Position numbers and translations under genes: made by a program. The notes under the pieces are model-generated. The model searched no databases. It saw only the letters and a list, made by a program, of their open reading frames with translations, and had not been told where the DNA came from. This document shows positions 4,450-53,063 of a stretch of 53,394 nucleotides of DNA, piece after piece (the first letter of the stretch is position 1; the number at the start of each line of letters is the position of its first letter). This DNA comes from Bacteroidaceae bacterium (lineage in GTDB: Bacteria; Bacteroidota; Bacteroidia; Bacteroidales; Bacteroidaceae), in the NCBI GenBank assembly GCA_017416805.1, contig JAFQBB010000045.1, positions 1 to 53,394 on the forward strand, given 5' to 3'.

Positions 4450-4769
4450 AGGATAATCCCGAATATAGAATATCAATAAGAAAAAAAGTAATAAACCTGA
4501 ATCGTAAACATACACGATTCTTCTGCAATTTAGTTGAAAAATATTCTTTGTTTTCAGCATTATAAGTTCATTGGCAAAATATCTTAAGATACTTGCCCAT
4601 TTATCTTAACTTCTCGGGCCATTTATATTAAGATACTTATTCCTCCCTAATTCCAACTAAATTGCAGAAGAGTCAGGTGTCCGGTCACATTCTCATCTGT
4701 AAAAAAATACAGAATTGAAGTGCCATTCCAAAAAAAACAGGGATATTTTGACTTTTTTCCTCAAAGTTG
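4450..4769. other. Intergenic region containing inverted-repeat element
   Basis: No gene seen. It holds the 4520-4670 element, described separately, and AT-rich sequence leading to the tRNA-Asn promoter. Confidence 0.7.
4520..4670. repeat. Array A: 22-bp periodic repeat inside 17-bp perfect inverted repeats
   Basis: Outer arms CTTCTGCAATTTAGTTG (4520-4536) and its exact reverse complement (4654-4670) enclose 117 bp. Inside, units start at 4564, 4586, 4608 and 4630, exactly 22 bp apart. Each begins AAG/AAC, carries GGC, GCC or GGCC near position 10, and the first three end in ATCTT or ATATT, so unit junctions read ATCTTAAGAT. The left flank and first unit are homologous to array D at 35640. 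No transposase is nearby and no target duplication is obvious. Confidence 0.75.
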
Positions 4770-16390: not shown

Positions 16391-18379
<1,989 letters not shown>

Positions 18380-18398
18380 ATAAGTACATATATAAATC

Positions 18399-18466
18399 AG
18401 GCGCGGATTACACTGATTACACGGAAAAATATAGAATCGTGAAATCAGCGTAATCCGCGCCTTTTC
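18399..18466 (+). terminator. Long hairpin after gyrB, dispersed-repeat type
   Basis: AGGCGCGGATTACACTGATT (18399-18418) and AATCAGCGTAATCCGCGCCT (18443-18462) pair over 20 bp with one mismatch, followed by TTTT. The text resembles the CGCGGAT words of the elements at 34746 and 52741, so it is probably a repeat element serving as terminator. Confidence 0.65.
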
Positions 18467-18551
18467 ATGGACATAGGTTCAATGGCCAACGAACTTATGT
18501 TAAAACACCATTTAACATATGTTCATCGGCCAATGAACATATGTTCATTAG
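18467..18551. repeat. Array B: 22-bp periodic inverted units at the gyrB/porin junction
   Basis: Units start at 18475, 18497, 18519 and 18541, exactly 22 bp apart. The third unit is a perfect palindrome-type unit: arm ATGTTCAT, spacer CGGCCA, arm ATGAACAT. Adjacent arms at unit junctions form GAACATATGTTC. The second unit keeps the arms but loses GGCC. The last half-unit ends in the porin stop codon (18548-18550), so the array fills the space between converging genes. Confidence 0.8.
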
Positions 18552-19627
18552 AACCTTACATAAACCTGCATCTGCAACAGACTGTAGTTCTTGTCCGGGT
18601 TGGCCGTGCGGACACCATCTGCACCATAAGAAACACTACGATCATCTATGTAACTGTAACCTGCCTGAAAGAGCAGATTCTTGTCGAGCCAATAGTTGAG
18701 GCTCAAACCATAGATACTTTTCTGGGTGTCGGAGGTCTTTTCATTGCGATAGACATCCCACTTACCGTAAATCTTGAATTGTTTGCCGACAGGAACACCA
18801 ACAGCAGCATACCATCCATCGGCCTTGTCGCCCAAGTTGGCATTGCTGACGCTCTTTCCTTTTGAGGTTATGTACTCGGCACGGGCAGTCCAGTCTGCTT
18901 CGTACTTCACACCGAAGGCAAGACGGTCGCGATCAATGGTCACCCCATTTCCTGTGTACTTGCCACTCCATCCGAAAGCACCAACCTGAAGATTCTTGAA
19001 GGGAGAAAGCCAAAGTCCACCAATGATATCTTTGTTCTCATTAGCATCCTTATGGTTTATGCCTTGACCGTTATACACTCCCACTTGGTAGTGCAAAAGA
19101 TTATGTTCATCATTGCCCACAGGGAAGAGATCCCCCTGAAACATGAGCCCCAAATCACGACCACCGCTTGCATGTTCGCCACACCGGTCGTTCATGCCTG
19201 CCAATTTGGTAATAATCTGTGCATAAGAACCAAATCCTACAGTCCATGGATTATAAGGGTTCTCAAACGTGAAAACACGCTTCATCTGACCGAAACGAAC
19301 GTTGAGCCATGAATATTTCACCCATTCAGCGTATGCGTCAAGCACACGGGGACCTTTATCCACACCAGGAGCTCCGGCCATCTCAGCCTGAAGGCGGTAC
19401 TTGAAGTCTTTGGCTACTGTGCCATTAACATAAACACGGGCATAGCGAAGGTTGAAACCTGCCGTCTTGTTCACTTCCTCATCGGTGTAATAGGAATAGT
19501 CTCCCACAATGTAACCGCCTAACTTGGCTGTAATAGGGGTATCCTTCAACTTGGGAAGTTGTGCCTTGGCCACTTGACCAACACCACACATCATGGCCAA
19601 CAGAGCCATTGAAATAATCTTTTTCAT
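18548..19627 (-). CDS. Outer-membrane porin, phosphate-selective OprO/OprP type
   Basis: 359 residues from the ATG at 19627. This start gives a signal peptide MKKIISMALLAMM...KAQ; an upstream in-frame ATG at 19696 would put 23 non-signal residues ahead of it. The mature protein is a series of amphipathic beta strands (YIVGDYSYYT, LRYARVYVNGTV, WLNVRFGQMKRVFTFEN) ending in the aromatic strand LLQMQVYVRF, typical of outer-membrane barrels. The family is annotated as phosphate-selective porin, but true substrate preference cannot be judged. Array C fills the gap upstream of the gene. Confidence 0.85.
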   Translation of the reverse strand: MKKIISMALLAMMCGVGQVAKAQLPKLKDTPITAKLGGYIVGDYSYYTDEEVNKTAGFNLRYARVYVNGTVAKDFKYRLQAEMAGAPGVDKGPRVLDAYAEWVKYSWLNVRFGQMKRVFTFENPYNPWTVGFGSYAQIITKLAGMNDRCGEHASGGRDLGLMFQGDLFPVGNDEHNLLHYQVGVYNGQGINHKDANENKDIIGGLWLSPFKNLQVGAFGWSGKYTGNGVTIDRDRLAFGVKYEADWTARAEYITSKGKSVSNANLGDKADGWYAAVGVPVGKQFKIYGKWDVYRNEKTSDTQKSIYGLSLNYWLDKNLLFQAGYSYIDDRSVSYGADGVRTANPDKNYSLLQMQVYVRF

Positions 19628-19677
19628 ATCAGTAATTATGTTATGTATGTCAGTTATTCTAAAGAAAGAATCATATT

Positions 19678-19875
19678 TTGAGTCATGAAAGACCAACTCT
19701 TGGACTTTGAAAGTCCGTAGCTGGATTACGGAAGTCCATCGATTGACTTTGAGAGTTCATGTCTTGATTCCAAAGATACTAATCTTTCGGCTTGAAGAAC
19801 CGTATCTTCATGCTTGAAGATTACTAATCTTATGCGCGAAAGATTAGTATCTTTCAAGCGGAAAGATTACATCCT
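19678..19875. repeat. Array C: about eight degenerate units of 21-28 bp
   Basis: Unit starts can be placed at 19678, 19700, 19722, 19743, 19764, 19792, 19814 and 19838. Most begin TTGA or TTGGA. The first half uses a GGACTTTGAAAGTCC word, the second half an AAGATTACTAATCTT word. Neighbouring units form short inverted repeats such as AAAGATTAGTATCTTT. It lies between the 3' end of secDF and the 5' end of the porin. Confidence 0.7.
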
Positions 19876-19888
19876 TTTTTGTCTCAAT

Positions 19889-19920
19889 AAAAAAGGCTCA
19901 CGCTTCATTGAGCGCGAGCC
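19889..19920 (-). terminator. Rho-independent terminator of secDF
   Basis: Minus strand: stem GGCTCGCGCT/AGCGTGAGCC with loop CAATGA, then TTTTTTATT. It lies 20 bp past the secDF stop. Confidence 0.85.
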
Positions 19921-19940
19921 TTTATACAGAGAGTTTATGA

Positions 19941-22931
19941 TTAAGCTTCTACGTCACCGCCTCTTTCTTTACGGCTCATCACGCGGTAAGCGATAGGAGC
20001 AGCTATGAAGAGTGAAGACAATGTACCGAATACCACACCGAGAATCATAGCAAATGCAAAGCTACGGATACTGTCACCACCAAGGATGAAGATACAGAGC
20101 AATACAACTAATGTACTGAGTGAGGTATTGATAGTACGTGCCAATGTGGTGTTCAAAGAATCATTGAACAATTGGAACTTGTTACGCTTCGGATAGAGAC
20201 CAAAGAACTCACGCACACGGTCAAAGATCACCACCTTATCGTTGATAGAGTAACCGATAGCGGTCAAGATAGCACCGATGAAAGTCTGGTCGATTTCCAA
20301 AGAGATGGGCAAGAACTTGTAGCACAACGAGTACATACCAAAGATAAGCAATGTATCAACAGCCAAAGCCACTACAGAGCCTACAGAGTAAGCCACATTG
20401 CGGAAACGAATCAAGATATAAACGAAGATAGCAGCCAAAGCCAAGATTACTGACCAAACAGCTGAAGTCTTGATGTCGTCAGCAATAGAAGGACCCACCT
20501 TCTGTGAGCTGATGATTGAACCACCGGTACGATTATCGCGGTCGATAAAGATTTCAAGTGTAGTACCCTCACCCAACAAATTGCCATCCTTCAAAGATTC
20601 ATAAAGGAATGCTTCGATTTCAGAATCAATAGTCGGAGTATCTTCATTGATACGATAGTTGGTAGTCACACGGATAGTACGGCCATCGGTACCCAAAGCA
20701 ATAGCACTCACATTAGCATCAGTAATCTTCTGCGAAAGGAGGGCACGCACTGTCTCGGGCTGAACCTGTTGCTCGAACTGAACCACAAAGTTACGGCCAC
20801 CGGTGAAGTCGATGCTCTTGCTCAAACCATTGACATAGAATGAAACAACACTGATGACAATGGCCGCTCCGAAGATAGCGAATGACTTCTTGGCTGCACC
20901 CATGAAGTTGAACTTCGTATTCTGCATCAAATTCTTGGAAAGATTGGTAGTGAAGGTCAAGTTCAACCACTTGTCCTTACCCATACGCCATTCGTAAACG
21001 ATACGAGTCAAGAATACAGCGGTGAAGAATGAGCAGAGGATACCGATAATCAAAGTAGTGGCAAAACCACGGATAGGACCTGTACCGAAATTGAACAGGA
21101 TGATACCGGTAATGATAGAAGTCAAGTTAGAGTCGAAGATGGCAGAGAAGGCATTCTTGTAACCATCGGCCAACGCGGCACGCACGTTCTTGCCTGCACG
21201 CAACTCTTCCTTCGCGCGTTCATATATAAGTACGTTAGCATCCACAGCCATACCGAGTGAAAGCACCATACCGGCAATACCGGACATAGTCAAGGCTGCT
21301 TGGAAAGAAGTCAAGATACCGAGTGTGAAGAAGAAGTTCACAATCAGGGCACCGTTAGCCACCATACCGGGGATGAGACCGTACATGGCACACATGTAAA
21401 TCATCAACAGCACAAACGCAAAGATGAATGACCACATACCTTGGTTGATTGACTCTTGACCGAGAGAAGGTCCTACGATGTCTTCCTGTACGATACGGGC
21501 AGGAGCGGGCATCTTACCAGACTTCAACACATTTGCCAAGTCCTTAGTCAATTCAGGAGTAAAGTTACCGGTAATCTGAGAGTTTCCACCAGTAATTTCA
21601 TTCTGTACATTAGGAGCACTATACACATAGCCATCCAATACGATAGCAATGCTACGACCAACATTATTCTTGGTCAAAGTAGCCCAACGACGAGAACCAT
21701 CGGTGTTCATAGACATGCTTACGCAAGGCTTGCCATGCTGGTCGTATGTGTCCATAGCATCAACAATCACATCACCTTCCAGCGGAGCACGTCCGTTGCG
21801 CTCGGTTGACTTGATGGCATAAAGTTCGAACACCTGACCGCTCTGGTCGAAGTCTGCAGCCTTCACGCCCCATTTCAAACGAAGGTCGCGTGGCAACATG
21901 TTCTTCACCTCAGGCATAGCCAACAGACGGTTAACCTCTGCGGTATCCTTATAATGGGCATAACCGGCAACTGGAGAATCATACGTGTTGAACTGAAGGA
22001 TAGCAGCCAACGGATGCTCCTTCTTCAATTGCTCGACATTCTGAGTGTTCTTACCGGCTGTAACGGTCTCACCAGTCAACGCAGCTGCCACATCCAGACT
22101 ATCAGTTGTTTCCTCTTTCGCCTCTGTAACTTTTTCGGTCTCTACTGTTTCCCCCTCCAAGACTGCCTTATCAGCCAACAGAGTACGCAACTTATTGTCA
22201 GCCGCGTTCAGATAAGAAACAATTTCAGGAGCCTTGTAAGTCTCCCAGAATTCGAGGTTAGCTGATCCCTGAAGCAATGCACGCACACGCTCGGGTTCTT
22301 TAACACCAGGCAATTCCACCATGATACGTCCCATTGTACCTTCCAAGTTCTGGATGTTTGGCTGAGCCACACCAAAACGGTCGATACGGGTACGCAACAC
22401 GTTGAATGAATTGTCGATGGCAGCCTTCACCTCTGCACGGAGCACCTTGATAACGTCGTCATCCGTACTCTTGGTGTTCACCTTGTCCTTCAACTGCTGG
22501 GTAGCAAAAAGTTCAGCCAGTGTTGCATCAGGAGCCAACTTACGATATTCTTCAACAAAAAGGGAAATGAAATCATCCTGGCTTGTAATCTGCTTGCGGG
22601 TAGCTTCGGCTACGGCTTTGTTGAAAGCCTCGTCACTCTTGTGGTCAGCCAATGCCTTCACCACATCAGGCACAGATACCTCCAAGATTACGTTCATACC
22701 ACCCTTCAGGTCAAGACCCAACCCGATTTCCATTTCACGACACTGCTGCAGCGTATATACGCCCAACCATACCTTTTCGTTCTTTACCGAATCAAGATAG
22801 TGGGTTGCTCCTTGTGGATCCTGAGCCGCCTTACTCATGTGGTGGCCAGTCACAAAAGAGAACGACAGGTAGAACACACAAACCAGTGTGAGCAACGCTG
22901 CAAAAATTTTAACAAATCCTTTGTTCTGCAT
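19941..22931 (-). CDS. secDF: Fused protein translocase subunit SecDF
   Basis: 996 residues, with SecD and SecF fused as in most Bacteroidetes. SecD: first membrane helix at 10-30, then GLGLDLKGGMNVILEVSVP (D1 region), the periplasmic P1 domain with an acidic, Thr-rich insert (about 255-300), and helices around MVLSLGMAVDANVLIYERAKEELRAG. SecF starts near 670 with a membrane helix, then SIDFTGGRNFVVQF, and ends with GYSINDKVVIFDRVRE and the last two helices. SecDF uses the proton gradient to pull exported proteins out of SecYEG on the outer side of the inner membrane. It is monocistronic with promoter and terminator. The large number of exported proteins around it fits its role, though the linkage is not functional proof. 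Confidence 0.96.
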   Translation of the reverse strand: MQNKGFVKIFAALLTLVCVFYLSFSFVTGHHMSKAAQDPQGATHYLDSVKNEKVWLGVYTLQQCREMEIGLGLDLKGGMNVILEVSVPDVVKALADHKSDEAFNKAVAEATRKQITSQDDFISLFVEEYRKLAPDATLAELFATQQLKDKVNTKSTDDDVIKVLRAEVKAAIDNSFNVLRTRIDRFGVAQPNIQNLEGTMGRIMVELPGVKEPERVRALLQGSANLEFWETYKAPEIVSYLNAADNKLRTLLADKAVLEGETVETEKVTEAKEETTDSLDVAAALTGETVTAGKNTQNVEQLKKEHPLAAILQFNTYDSPVAGYAHYKDTAEVNRLLAMPEVKNMLPRDLRLKWGVKAADFDQSGQVFELYAIKSTERNGRAPLEGDVIVDAMDTYDQHGKPCVSMSMNTDGSRRWATLTKNNVGRSIAIVLDGYVYSAPNVQNEITGGNSQITGNFTPELTKDLANVLKSGKMPAPARIVQEDIVGPSLGQESINQGMWSFIFAFVLLMIYMCAMYGLIPGMVANGALIVNFFFTLGILTSFQAALTMSGIAGMVLSLGMAVDANVLIYERAKEELRAGKNVRAALADGYKNAFSAIFDSNLTSIITGIILFNFGTGPIRGFATTLIIGILCSFFTAVFLTRIVYEWRMGKDKWLNLTFTTNLSKNLMQNTKFNFMGAAKKSFAIFGAAIVISVVSFYVNGLSKSIDFTGGRNFVVQFEQQVQPETVRALLSQKITDANVSAIALGTDGRTIRVTTNYRINEDTPTIDSEIEAFLYESLKDGNLLGEGTTLEIFIDRDNRTGGSIISSQKVGPSIADDIKTSAVWSVILALAAIFVYILIRFRNVAYSVGSVVALAVDTLLIFGMYSLCYKFLPISLEIDQTFIGAILTAIGYSINDKVVIFDRVREFFGLYPKRNKFQLFNDSLNTTLARTINTSLSTLVVLLCIFILGGDSIRSFAFAMILGVVFGTLSSLFIAAPIAYRVMSRKERGGDVEA

Positions 22932-34745: not shown

Positions 34746-34880
34746 TTTAGACGCGGATACGCGGATTTTTCATTCTGCTCAAGGGAACTTCGCAGATAAA
34801 TTATAACCTATCGGGTATAATAATCAAGAAAAATCCACGTATCCGCGTCATCTGCTTCTAAAAAGTTTATTATGACACAC
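34746..34880. repeat. Dispersed palindromic element, copy 1
   Basis: Arms TTTAGACGCGGATACGCGGA and a CCACGTATCCGCGTC-type counterpart enclose a centre with TTATAACCTATCGGGTATAA. An inverted copy with the same centre and flanks lies at 52722-52820, and a partial copy at 52940-52975. The shared block is about 100 bp. Confidence 0.75.
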
Positions 34881-35639: not shown

Positions 35640-35722
35640 AGGTTCATCGGCAAAGTAACTTAAGAGAAATGGGCAAGTATCTTAAGTTACTTTGCCTTTT
35701 ATCTTAAAATACTTTTTTGAGG
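35640..35722. repeat. Array D: 22-bp periodic units
   Basis: Units start at 35640, 35662, 35684 and 35706, exactly 22 bp apart. Each full unit has GGC, GGGC or TGCC near position 10 and ends AACTT or ATCTT, so junctions read ACTTAAG or TCTTAAG. The left flank and first unit align with array A (shared TTATA(A/G)GTTCAT(T/C)GGCAAA), and TTCTTCTGCAATTTTGTTG at 35753 matches the outer arm of A. It lies between converging genes. Confidence 0.78.
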
Positions 35723-51820: not shown

Positions 51821-52023
51821 AGTGAACTATAGTTCATTTGTCAAGCCATATATAGTTCACTTCCTGAGCCATATATAGTTCACTTGGGGTAGCCGTATAT
51901 AGTTCACTTAGGATAGCCGTAAGTATTTCACTTGGATAAGCCACTAACTGTTCATTCCGCAAATCGTAAGTATTTCATTGACAACTGTATAAGCAATTCA
52001 CTCGTAGAGTGAATTGTTGACTG
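51821..52023. repeat. Array E: about seven units of 22-25 bp
   Basis: It begins with the perfect palindrome TGAACTATAGTTCA, then units of the form AGTTCACTT-n5-AGCC-(A/G)TATAT, with AGCC starting at 51845, 51868, 51892, 51916 and 51940. Later units drift (GTAAGTATTTCA, TGTTCATT) and the array ends in an ATTCACTCGTAGAGTGAAT hairpin. The units are mainly direct repeats, unlike arrays A, B and D. There are no unique CRISPR-like spacers. Confidence 0.75.
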
Positions 52024-52478: not shown

Positions 52479-53063
52479 TTATCGCACTTTTTTTTGTTCC
52501 TTTTTTAGAAGCAAGACTATTTTTTCCTTTTTAGGCATCAATACATATGTTTCTTTATTATTACCGTTCTGGTACAATCTCTATTTTACCGGACACCCTC
52601 AAAAAAAACTATTGGTGTCTGGTAAACCGCTATAATATCTTGCTTTAGTGTGTTTTAATGGTGGACAAGCCGTAGGGGCATCCCTTGTGGGTGCCCACGA
52701 ATGCATAGCAGACCTCTATCGGAGGGTGGTCATAATTAACTTTTTAGACGCAGATGACGCGGATGACGCGGATTTTTCTTGATTATTATACCCGATAGGT
52801 TATAATTTATCTGCGTCATCTGCGCAATCAGCGGATGAAGAATTAAATGGTGGCATTTTTGACACAGCTTCACAAACGCATAGCAAACCTCTATCGGGCA
52901 ACCACAAGGGATTGCCCCTACAGGAAACGTCTCCGTGACATCCGCGTCTGAAAAGTCAATTATGGCACACCCTCCTACGGCGGGAATGTTCAGATTCTTC
53001 GTCCTATTGTCTTTAAACGAGTTGCCAAGGACTCCGCCCGAGAAATGACAAAACTTGACGAAC
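52479..53063. other. Gene-free region containing the repeat island
   Basis: No supported gene over about 585 bp. Short open frames here are built from the repeats. Apart from the 52660-52980 island, only AT-rich sequence with T runs is seen. Confidence 0.6.
52660..52980. repeat. Composite island of inverted dispersed elements
   Basis: Two element types each occur twice. Type 1: GTAGGGGCATCCCTTGTGG (from 52672) and CCACAAGGGATTGCCCCTAC (52902-52921), each next to GCATAGCAnACCTCTATCGG. Type 2: GGGTGGTCATAATTAACTTT (52723) and an inverted AAAAGTCAATTATGGCACAC (52951). The centre 52741-52820 is an inverted copy of the 34746 element. Confidence 0.72.

Follow-up and report, generated by a model that had tools for sequence, protein, structure and literature searches.

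The four-unit repeat between gyrB and a porin gene in a Bacteroidaceae genome, hereafter array B, is a diverged, end-less core copy of a non-autonomous, probably ISL3-spread MITE. We tentatively favor, at somewhat short of an even chance, a reading in which this origin is combined with a function for the family to which array B belongs (family A), whose cores would each line up phased binding sites for a protein that acts on DNA as a dimer. Judged from sister copies, the retention of one word and one spacing amid changing surroundings suggests a protein reader. Specifically, an ISL3-family transposase would once have spread the MITE through the genome, and the core, four 12-bp palindromes GAACATATGTTC at exactly 22 bp, or two helical turns, would present phased sites to a putative dimeric, sequence-specific DNA-binding protein. 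These sites would have been placed mainly in convergent and 3'-flanking gaps, and binding, which we infer together with its effect, might serve as a roadblock, as insulation, or in chromosome organization.

The window, that is, the whole stretch of DNA that was analyzed, comprises 53,394 nucleotides (contig JAFQBB010000045.1). The genome that carries it is denoted G000, other G numbers denote other genomes, and L numbers denote sequence stretches or loci. The nearest named relatives of G000 are ruminant-gut MAGs labelled Bacteroidaceae. Array B occupies the gap between gyrB and the porin gene, where the following features were recorded.

16412..18379, plus strand: gyrB, which flanks array B
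18399..18462, no strand: a second, unrelated long inverted repeat adjoining gyrB, with GGCGCGGATTA arms
18460..18555, folding on both strands: long-hairpin stretch spanning array B (-42.9 and -38.7 kcal/mol; z -8.4 and -8.3)
18469..18546, minus strand: whole four-unit core of array B, family A (frame scan and BLAST)
18469..18480, minus strand: unit 4 word, GAACCTATGTCC as read on that strand, two changes from GAACATATGTTC
18491..18502, minus strand: unit 3 word, TAACATAAGTTC as read on that strand, two changes from GAACATATGTTC
18513..18524, minus strand: unit 2 word, GAACATATGTTA as read on that strand, one change from GAACATATGTTC
18535..18546, no strand: unit 1 word, GAACATATGTTC without change (77 such copies in the genome)
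18548..19696, minus strand: porin (Pfam Porin_4), whose stop codon touches array B

The units of array B start at 18469, 18491, 18513, and 18535 and thus lie exactly 22 bp apart, as an earlier, sequence-only reading of the window had claimed. That reading had built each unit from 8-bp arms and a 6-bp spacer containing GGCC; the natural word is instead the 12-bp GAACATATGTTC and the spacer is 10 bp, with GGCC in two of the three spacers and AAACACCATT in the middle one. Symmetry centers every 11 bp, also proposed at that stage, did not hold as a general feature (2 seen versus 1.0 expected, arm 5). Array B matched family A by BLAST (78% over 81 bp, E 1.9e-9). Among the 24 four-unit copies it stands furthest from the consensus (21 mismatches), and 5 of its 48 word positions are changed. 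Its nearest relative is another end-less copy, at C14 (L147), with which it has a TTAAA...TTTAA center in common. Neither MITE end is recognizable at array B, the best matches to the 24-bp end having 11 and 10 mismatches, so that no target duplication can be scored there. Rfam returned no match in window positions 18200-20000 at gathering thresholds. The unrelated GACGCGGAT / GGCGCGGATTA-arm repeats and hairpins were seen at window positions 18399-18462, 34751-34766, and 52747-52773, and the GGCGCGGATTA-arm repeat also adjoins gyrB in L031 and, in part, in L033.

A BLAST search with one whole copy placed family A at no fewer than 27 loci in G000, plus one end-only match; this is a lower bound, as 28 of 53 first-look candidates were scored. 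The loci comprise 24 four-unit cores, two two-unit cores, and a single unit. Complete copies are MITEs with 24-bp inverted ends, GGYTCTTCTGCAATTTRGTTGAAA, and mostly measure about 160-175 bp including the ends, the longest pairing being about 206 bp. At up to 5 mismatches, these ends were found on both sides of 6 of the 24 cores, on one side of 10, and on neither side of 8, compared with 8 mismatches for the best of 300 random stretches. Among 25 candidate end-paired loci, 8-bp target duplications at one fixed offset were exact in four, had one mismatch in four, and matched at 7 of 7 positions in one; a further locus had an exact but A-rich duplication at a neighboring offset, and the remaining 15 had none. 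At the one locus inspected for an empty site (L163), the flanks were not syntenic in relatives. At the level of the family, therefore, inverted ends and target duplications occur on a short, multicopy element that has no transposase.

The parent type was evident in relatives. Ends matching GGYTCTTCTGCAATTTRGTTGAAA with at most 2 mismatches were detected in 24 of 301 family genomes. A 563-codon open reading frame with PF01610 (E 8e-21) and PF14690 domains lies between the outermost ends in G177, as does a third end, and in G012 the same ends enclose a broken transposase gene. Matches to PF01610 were present in 113 of the 301 family genomes, with none in G000 (approximately 91% complete). Family A thus resembles ISL3 elements in that its ends enclose PF01610/PF14690 transposase genes in relatives, and differs from them in that the element itself has no transposase. 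A published ISL3-like transposon is described as having 25-bp ends and AT-rich 8-bp duplications (PMC5559704). One role raised at the outset, that of a self-copying repeat, is borne out for the origin of array B by the inverted ends, the 8-bp duplications, and the ISL3-type parent in relatives.

Two further features of these elements were noted. One end of the ISL3 element of G177 (L234 774-1042) bears a segment with inverted ends of its own and an 11-bp, TAGACTATGCC-like repeat, 11 bp being half of the 22-bp period. A second recurrent flank, ACGGAAATCGTTAACATAC, borders family A copies at L150, L154, L158, and L161 (on both sides in L161) and also one array of the word AAATATATATTT at L292; its occurrence with both suggests that cores may change carriers.

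The sequence-only reading had also stated that no named family with this design was known to it, which is only partly right. Among the matches listed, the closest known system is BrickBuilt of Porphyromonas gingivalis, described as a MITE in which a minisatellite core of 23-nt head-to-tail repeats is set between a leader and a tail, present in 19 intergenic copies in one strain, with copies lacking leader or tail being common (PMC4596501). The same account gives predicted long stem-loops, a repeat with conserved and non-conserved sites, 12-nt IS5-type ends (GAGACC), target duplications that vary, and a repeat number of 1 to 22.8 (PMC4596501). Compared by description, family A likewise has a tandem core, of 22-bp period, within a MITE. 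However, its ends are 24-bp ISL3-type GGYTCTTCTGCAATTTRGTTGAAA rather than GAGACC and are accompanied by 8-bp duplications, it usually has four units in which the kept half is a 12-bp perfect palindrome, and one set of ends carries several words; these differences are relative to BrickBuilt as so described. More broadly, the roles of MITEs named in a review include protein (IHF) sites and terminator-like sequences (PMC10969869). Like REP/BIME elements, family A consists of small intergenic palindromes; unlike them, it rides on a MITE with ends and target duplications and has a fixed 22-bp phase. REP/BIME palindromes, too, are often clustered and are possible protein sites. The matS and Noc sites of chromosome-organizing proteins are short palindromes that number in the tens per genome and are mostly single. 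The family A word is also short, palindromic, and present in tens of copies, but it occurs in rows on a transposable element, and its protein is putative.

Indirect evidence for a protein reader comes from what is kept and what drifts among the cores. An even decay would be expected of dispersed non-coding repeats. To examine a set chosen blind to the word, we used the 19 of 24 four-unit copies that were also matched by a search for the ends (L145, L147, L161, L169, and the window copy had no such match and were dropped). In these, 3 of 684 sites were changed in the words of units 1-3, compared with 101 of 570 spacer sites. With unit 4 included, 16 of 912 word sites were changed, and 11 of the 13 unit-4 changes fell at one position. 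The difference between words and spacers has a Fisher p of 5e-33, which is not a true probability because the copies are related. Across all 24 four-unit copies, change per site was 0.026 in words and 0.196 in spacers, and when the window copy and L147 were removed, words had a pairwise divergence of 0.027, spacers of 0.265, the leader of 0.235, and the tail of 0.324. The exact word GAACATATGTTC occurs 77 times in the genome, every time in a family A locus, compared with 0 times for a reversed control. A neighboring word (at most 4 mismatches) lies 22 or 44 bp away in 76 of the 77 cases, the exception being the one-unit copy L144.

Spacing is uniform as well. Each of the 24 cores can be laid on a 78-nt frame with no gaps, and thus all 72 spacers are 10 bp; the ungapped core search is biased against copies with spacer indels, yet all 27 BLAST loci were accounted for. 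In the 19 copies in which a tail motif could be assigned, it is 14-18 nt away from the core (of the other five, four have no motif and one has an outlier at 30 nt). The leader is also constant in length in 17 of the 20 copies measured, which counts against the argument from spacing. A parallel was found in the AAATATATATTT family, in which all 12 intervals of six arrays are 21 bp with changing spacers; in that scan, eight further near-word pairs whose distance was not 21 bp were taken as chance. The suggestion that the array places a protein site repeatedly on one DNA face receives indirect support from word conservation and exact spacing, although no candidate protein was found.

A rather unlikely alternative, in our estimation, is that array B is a passive MITE relic and that the words are alike because a few sources with already differing spacers expanded in a recent burst. 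The MITE ancestry, the end-less state of the window copy, and the absence of an array at this position in three of the four other relatives in which gyrB is adjacent are all compatible with a relic, as are two G000 loci (L167 and L330) that bear other words on similar spacers. Under this alternative, the scarcity of copies in divergent gaps would possibly reflect plain selection against promoter damage. However, at least one end is unrecognizable in 18 of the 24 four-unit copies, and their leaders and tails have diverged while the words have not; spacer length is also unchanged in 72 of 72 cases. Part of the contrast between words and spacers could nonetheless stem from recent expansion of a few old sources. 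The words of L167 and L330, worn copies in G002 and G006, and the status of array B as the most diverged copy likewise weigh against the protein-site reading.

A second alternative, which we consider possible though on balance doubtful, is that array B is an RNA 3'-end hairpin that ends or protects the converging gyrB and porin transcripts, supplied by whichever mobile repeat landed there. Array B folds strongly on both strands (z -8.4 and -8.3), the porin stop codon abuts it, and the gap folds strongly in all five genomes in which gyrB adjoins the porin, including that of the window (z -5.3 to -13.3). Largely different repeats fill these five gaps: array B in the window, an array of TATCTTAAGATA words in G011, and repeats of other kinds elsewhere, some of the repeats being common to more than one species. 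Long inverted repeats (score of at least 12) were detected in 23 of 51 convergent gaps, 44 of 241 same-strand gaps, and 6 of 60 divergent gaps (23 of 51 convergent versus 50 of 301 other gaps), and in 0 shuffled gaps at one shuffle per gap; this count used the 352 of 401 gaps between 50 and 1200 bp. Collectively, the strong folds in gyrB gaps and the inverted repeats in convergent gaps make a 3'-end hairpin a serious rival at array B.

Among the 24 copies, the true pairing, with 83.0% paired and a covariation score of 0.044, exceeded pairings in which the partner was slid (20-47% and 0.013-0.038), although palindromic words alone would produce the same. Covariation did not exceed that in shuffles (83.0% versus 83.2% paired; score 0.044 versus 0.048), which argues against selection for a long hairpin across family A. 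Stem pairs within the spacers are often broken, and a scan limited to loops of 3-8 found no terminator-like site (a hairpin plus a T run) in window positions 18360-18600. The RNA 3'-end role suggested by the sequence-only reading thus gained from the strong fold and from convergent-gap enrichment and lost on covariation and terminator-like sites. Moreover, an RNA hairpin would not require a single word or spacers of exactly 10 nt, and the fixed word, two-turn phase, and free spacers fit dimer sites better. Given its five changed word positions, array B itself may keep only a 3'-end hairpin role in the gyrB-porin gap.

The context of the family bears on the type of protein that might read it. 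Of the 22 four-unit copies whose context could be classified, 13 are in convergent gaps, 9 are in same-strand gaps, and none is in a divergent gap (two copies lie at contig edges); the one-unit copy L144 does sit in a divergent gap. The absence of four-unit copies from divergent gaps makes a promoter-type regulator unlikely. We regard it as very improbable that the row of GAACATATGTTC words is an SOS (LexA/DinR) operator array. The GAAC-N4-GTTC within the word resembles the Gram-positive LexA box. However, no LexA DNA-binding domain was matched in G000 (approximately 91% complete) or in G006 and G034, which also carry the word, and this candidate was rejected; one weak match was found in G002, and 7 of 61 genomes had matches overall.

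Arrays of this period extend beyond family A. In a 765-kb sample (the window plus 40 stretches) with 401 intergenic gaps totaling 102.7 kb, Tandem Repeats Finder (TRF) identified 33 intergenic arrays of period 21-24 at a score of at least 50, versus 0.2 per dinucleotide shuffle, which upholds the expectation that 22-bp arrays are commoner than in shuffled sequence; eight such arrays were in coding sequence. Intergenic arrays of other periods numbered 26 for periods 10-17 (0.4 per shuffle), 16 for periods 1-9 (0 per shuffle), four for periods 18-20, and one for periods 25-28, and with shorter repeats also in excess, period 21-24 is the densest class rather than the sole one. The window, which was chosen for having arrays, supplies 4 of the 34 sample arrays of period 20-25. 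A word-independent count of palindrome centers peaked at 21-22 bp (12 seen versus 1.0 expected, arm 6). Judged by eye, heptamer multiples account for 7 of the 34 arrays of period 20-25, and one more looks octamer-based, indicating different classes. With gene contexts assigned by a simple home-made codon-usage ORF caller, arrays were found in 12 of 53 convergent gaps versus 15 of 348 others when the heptamer class was excluded (Fisher p 3e-5), and in 12 of 53 versus 21 of 348 when it was included. Heptamer-based intergenic arrays (ACTCGTAGCTCGTAGCTCGTA and alike) were seen at L279, L280, L290, L299, and L302. Many more intergenic arrays of 21-24 bp with unrelated words, for example AAATATATATTT, GGTCATAATGACC, CCTAAACATCCG, and CTCTTCACAGTGTGAAGAG, were seen in L263-L302.

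The sequence-only reading had reported four other gaps in the window with the same period and different words; TRF identified three other arrays in the window, which are listed here with associated features.

4516..4674, plus strand: complete MITE with ISL3-type ends and core word TATCTTAAGATA (family B), in which no target duplication was found
4580-4638, no strand: array inside the family B MITE (TRF)
19773..19869, no strand: 22-23 bp array of mixed palindromic words upstream of the porin (TRF)
35649..35696, no strand: inverted repeat in a further convergent gap, its word resembling that of family B
51828..51938, no strand: array of 23-24 bp period, CAAGTGAAC / CGGCT type (TRF)

In the secDF-porin gap (window 19697-19940; L029-L034), palindromes of about 15 bp lie about 22-23 bp apart by eye, with mixed words (AAGAT..ATCTT, GGACT..AGTCC), and the pattern is absent in L036. 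As judged by eye, the position of this array is kept among near relatives, unlike that of array B. Fold z scores of the gap range from -1.1 (L029) to -6.1 (L031), with -6.0 in the window. The CAAGTGAAC...CGGCT pattern in 23-24 bp units was seen at many loci, including L289, L149, L162, and L299.

The ends that carry family A also carry other words. Cores of TATCTTAAGATA (family B) occur on the same ends at window positions 4516-4674, at other G000 loci, and in G014 and G004, and both ends were found in seven of the eight family B elements scored. Since family B is conserved along its whole length and has a non-palindromic middle unit, it gives no signal of word versus spacer. L167 and L330 of G000 are end-bearing cores with TATATA-type words and family A-like spacers (AAGTGYYAAC-type; CAAGTGCCAAC and CAAGTGTCAAC). 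Of seven end matches with 3 mismatches, six look like chance and one is the L330 core. Both loci are outside the count of word changes; were they family A copies in decay, the word would be less protected than counted. Similar words with the same ends in G006, G011, and G012 make a separate word family likelier. Since the same ends carry several core words, the recurrence of one period with different words represents a set of related cores. The proposal that the word changes while the spacer is kept therefore applies between word families; inside family A it is reversed, with the word kept and the spacer drifting.

The array of 83 nt in the same gap of G011, built on TATCTTAAGATA, raised the further possibility that it is array B after in-place replacement of the word, which would be compatible with the other readings and which we judge improbable. 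It lies in the same place just after the porin stop, is nearly equal in length (82 versus 83 nt), and aligns with a single gap, scoring 9 where 1000 mononucleotide shuffles gave at most -1. However, the G011 array is closer to family B MITEs (local score 30) than to array B (14), which shows that the shuffle control is too weak. Independent insertion is no less likely an origin.

Conservation in relatives is divided. The position of array B is not conserved, as three of the four relatives compared have no array there; the word and the 22-bp period do recur in relatives, and, by eye, the position of the secDF-porin array does as well. In G034, which belongs to another genus, the exact word GAACATATGTTC appears three times with a 22-bp step and unrelated spacers. 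By eye, the copies in G002 and G006 are more worn. Tandem occurrence of the exact word is rare; among the 392 genomes of the order other than G000, a single one has it, at 31 bp.

In its broadest form, which we regard as unlikely, the phased-site reading would extend to a large system of phased palindromic arrays in Bacteroidales genomes of this kind, each word with its own protein that organizes or insulates the chromosome where gene ends converge, with MITEs swapping and spreading the sites. A plan like that of BrickBuilt occurs outside Porphyromonas and on a different transposase family. Within family A, the 12-bp word and its phase have stayed intact while spacers, ends, and flanks have worn, which points to a candidate reader protein, and the array DNA of this family offers a direct bait with which that protein might be found.
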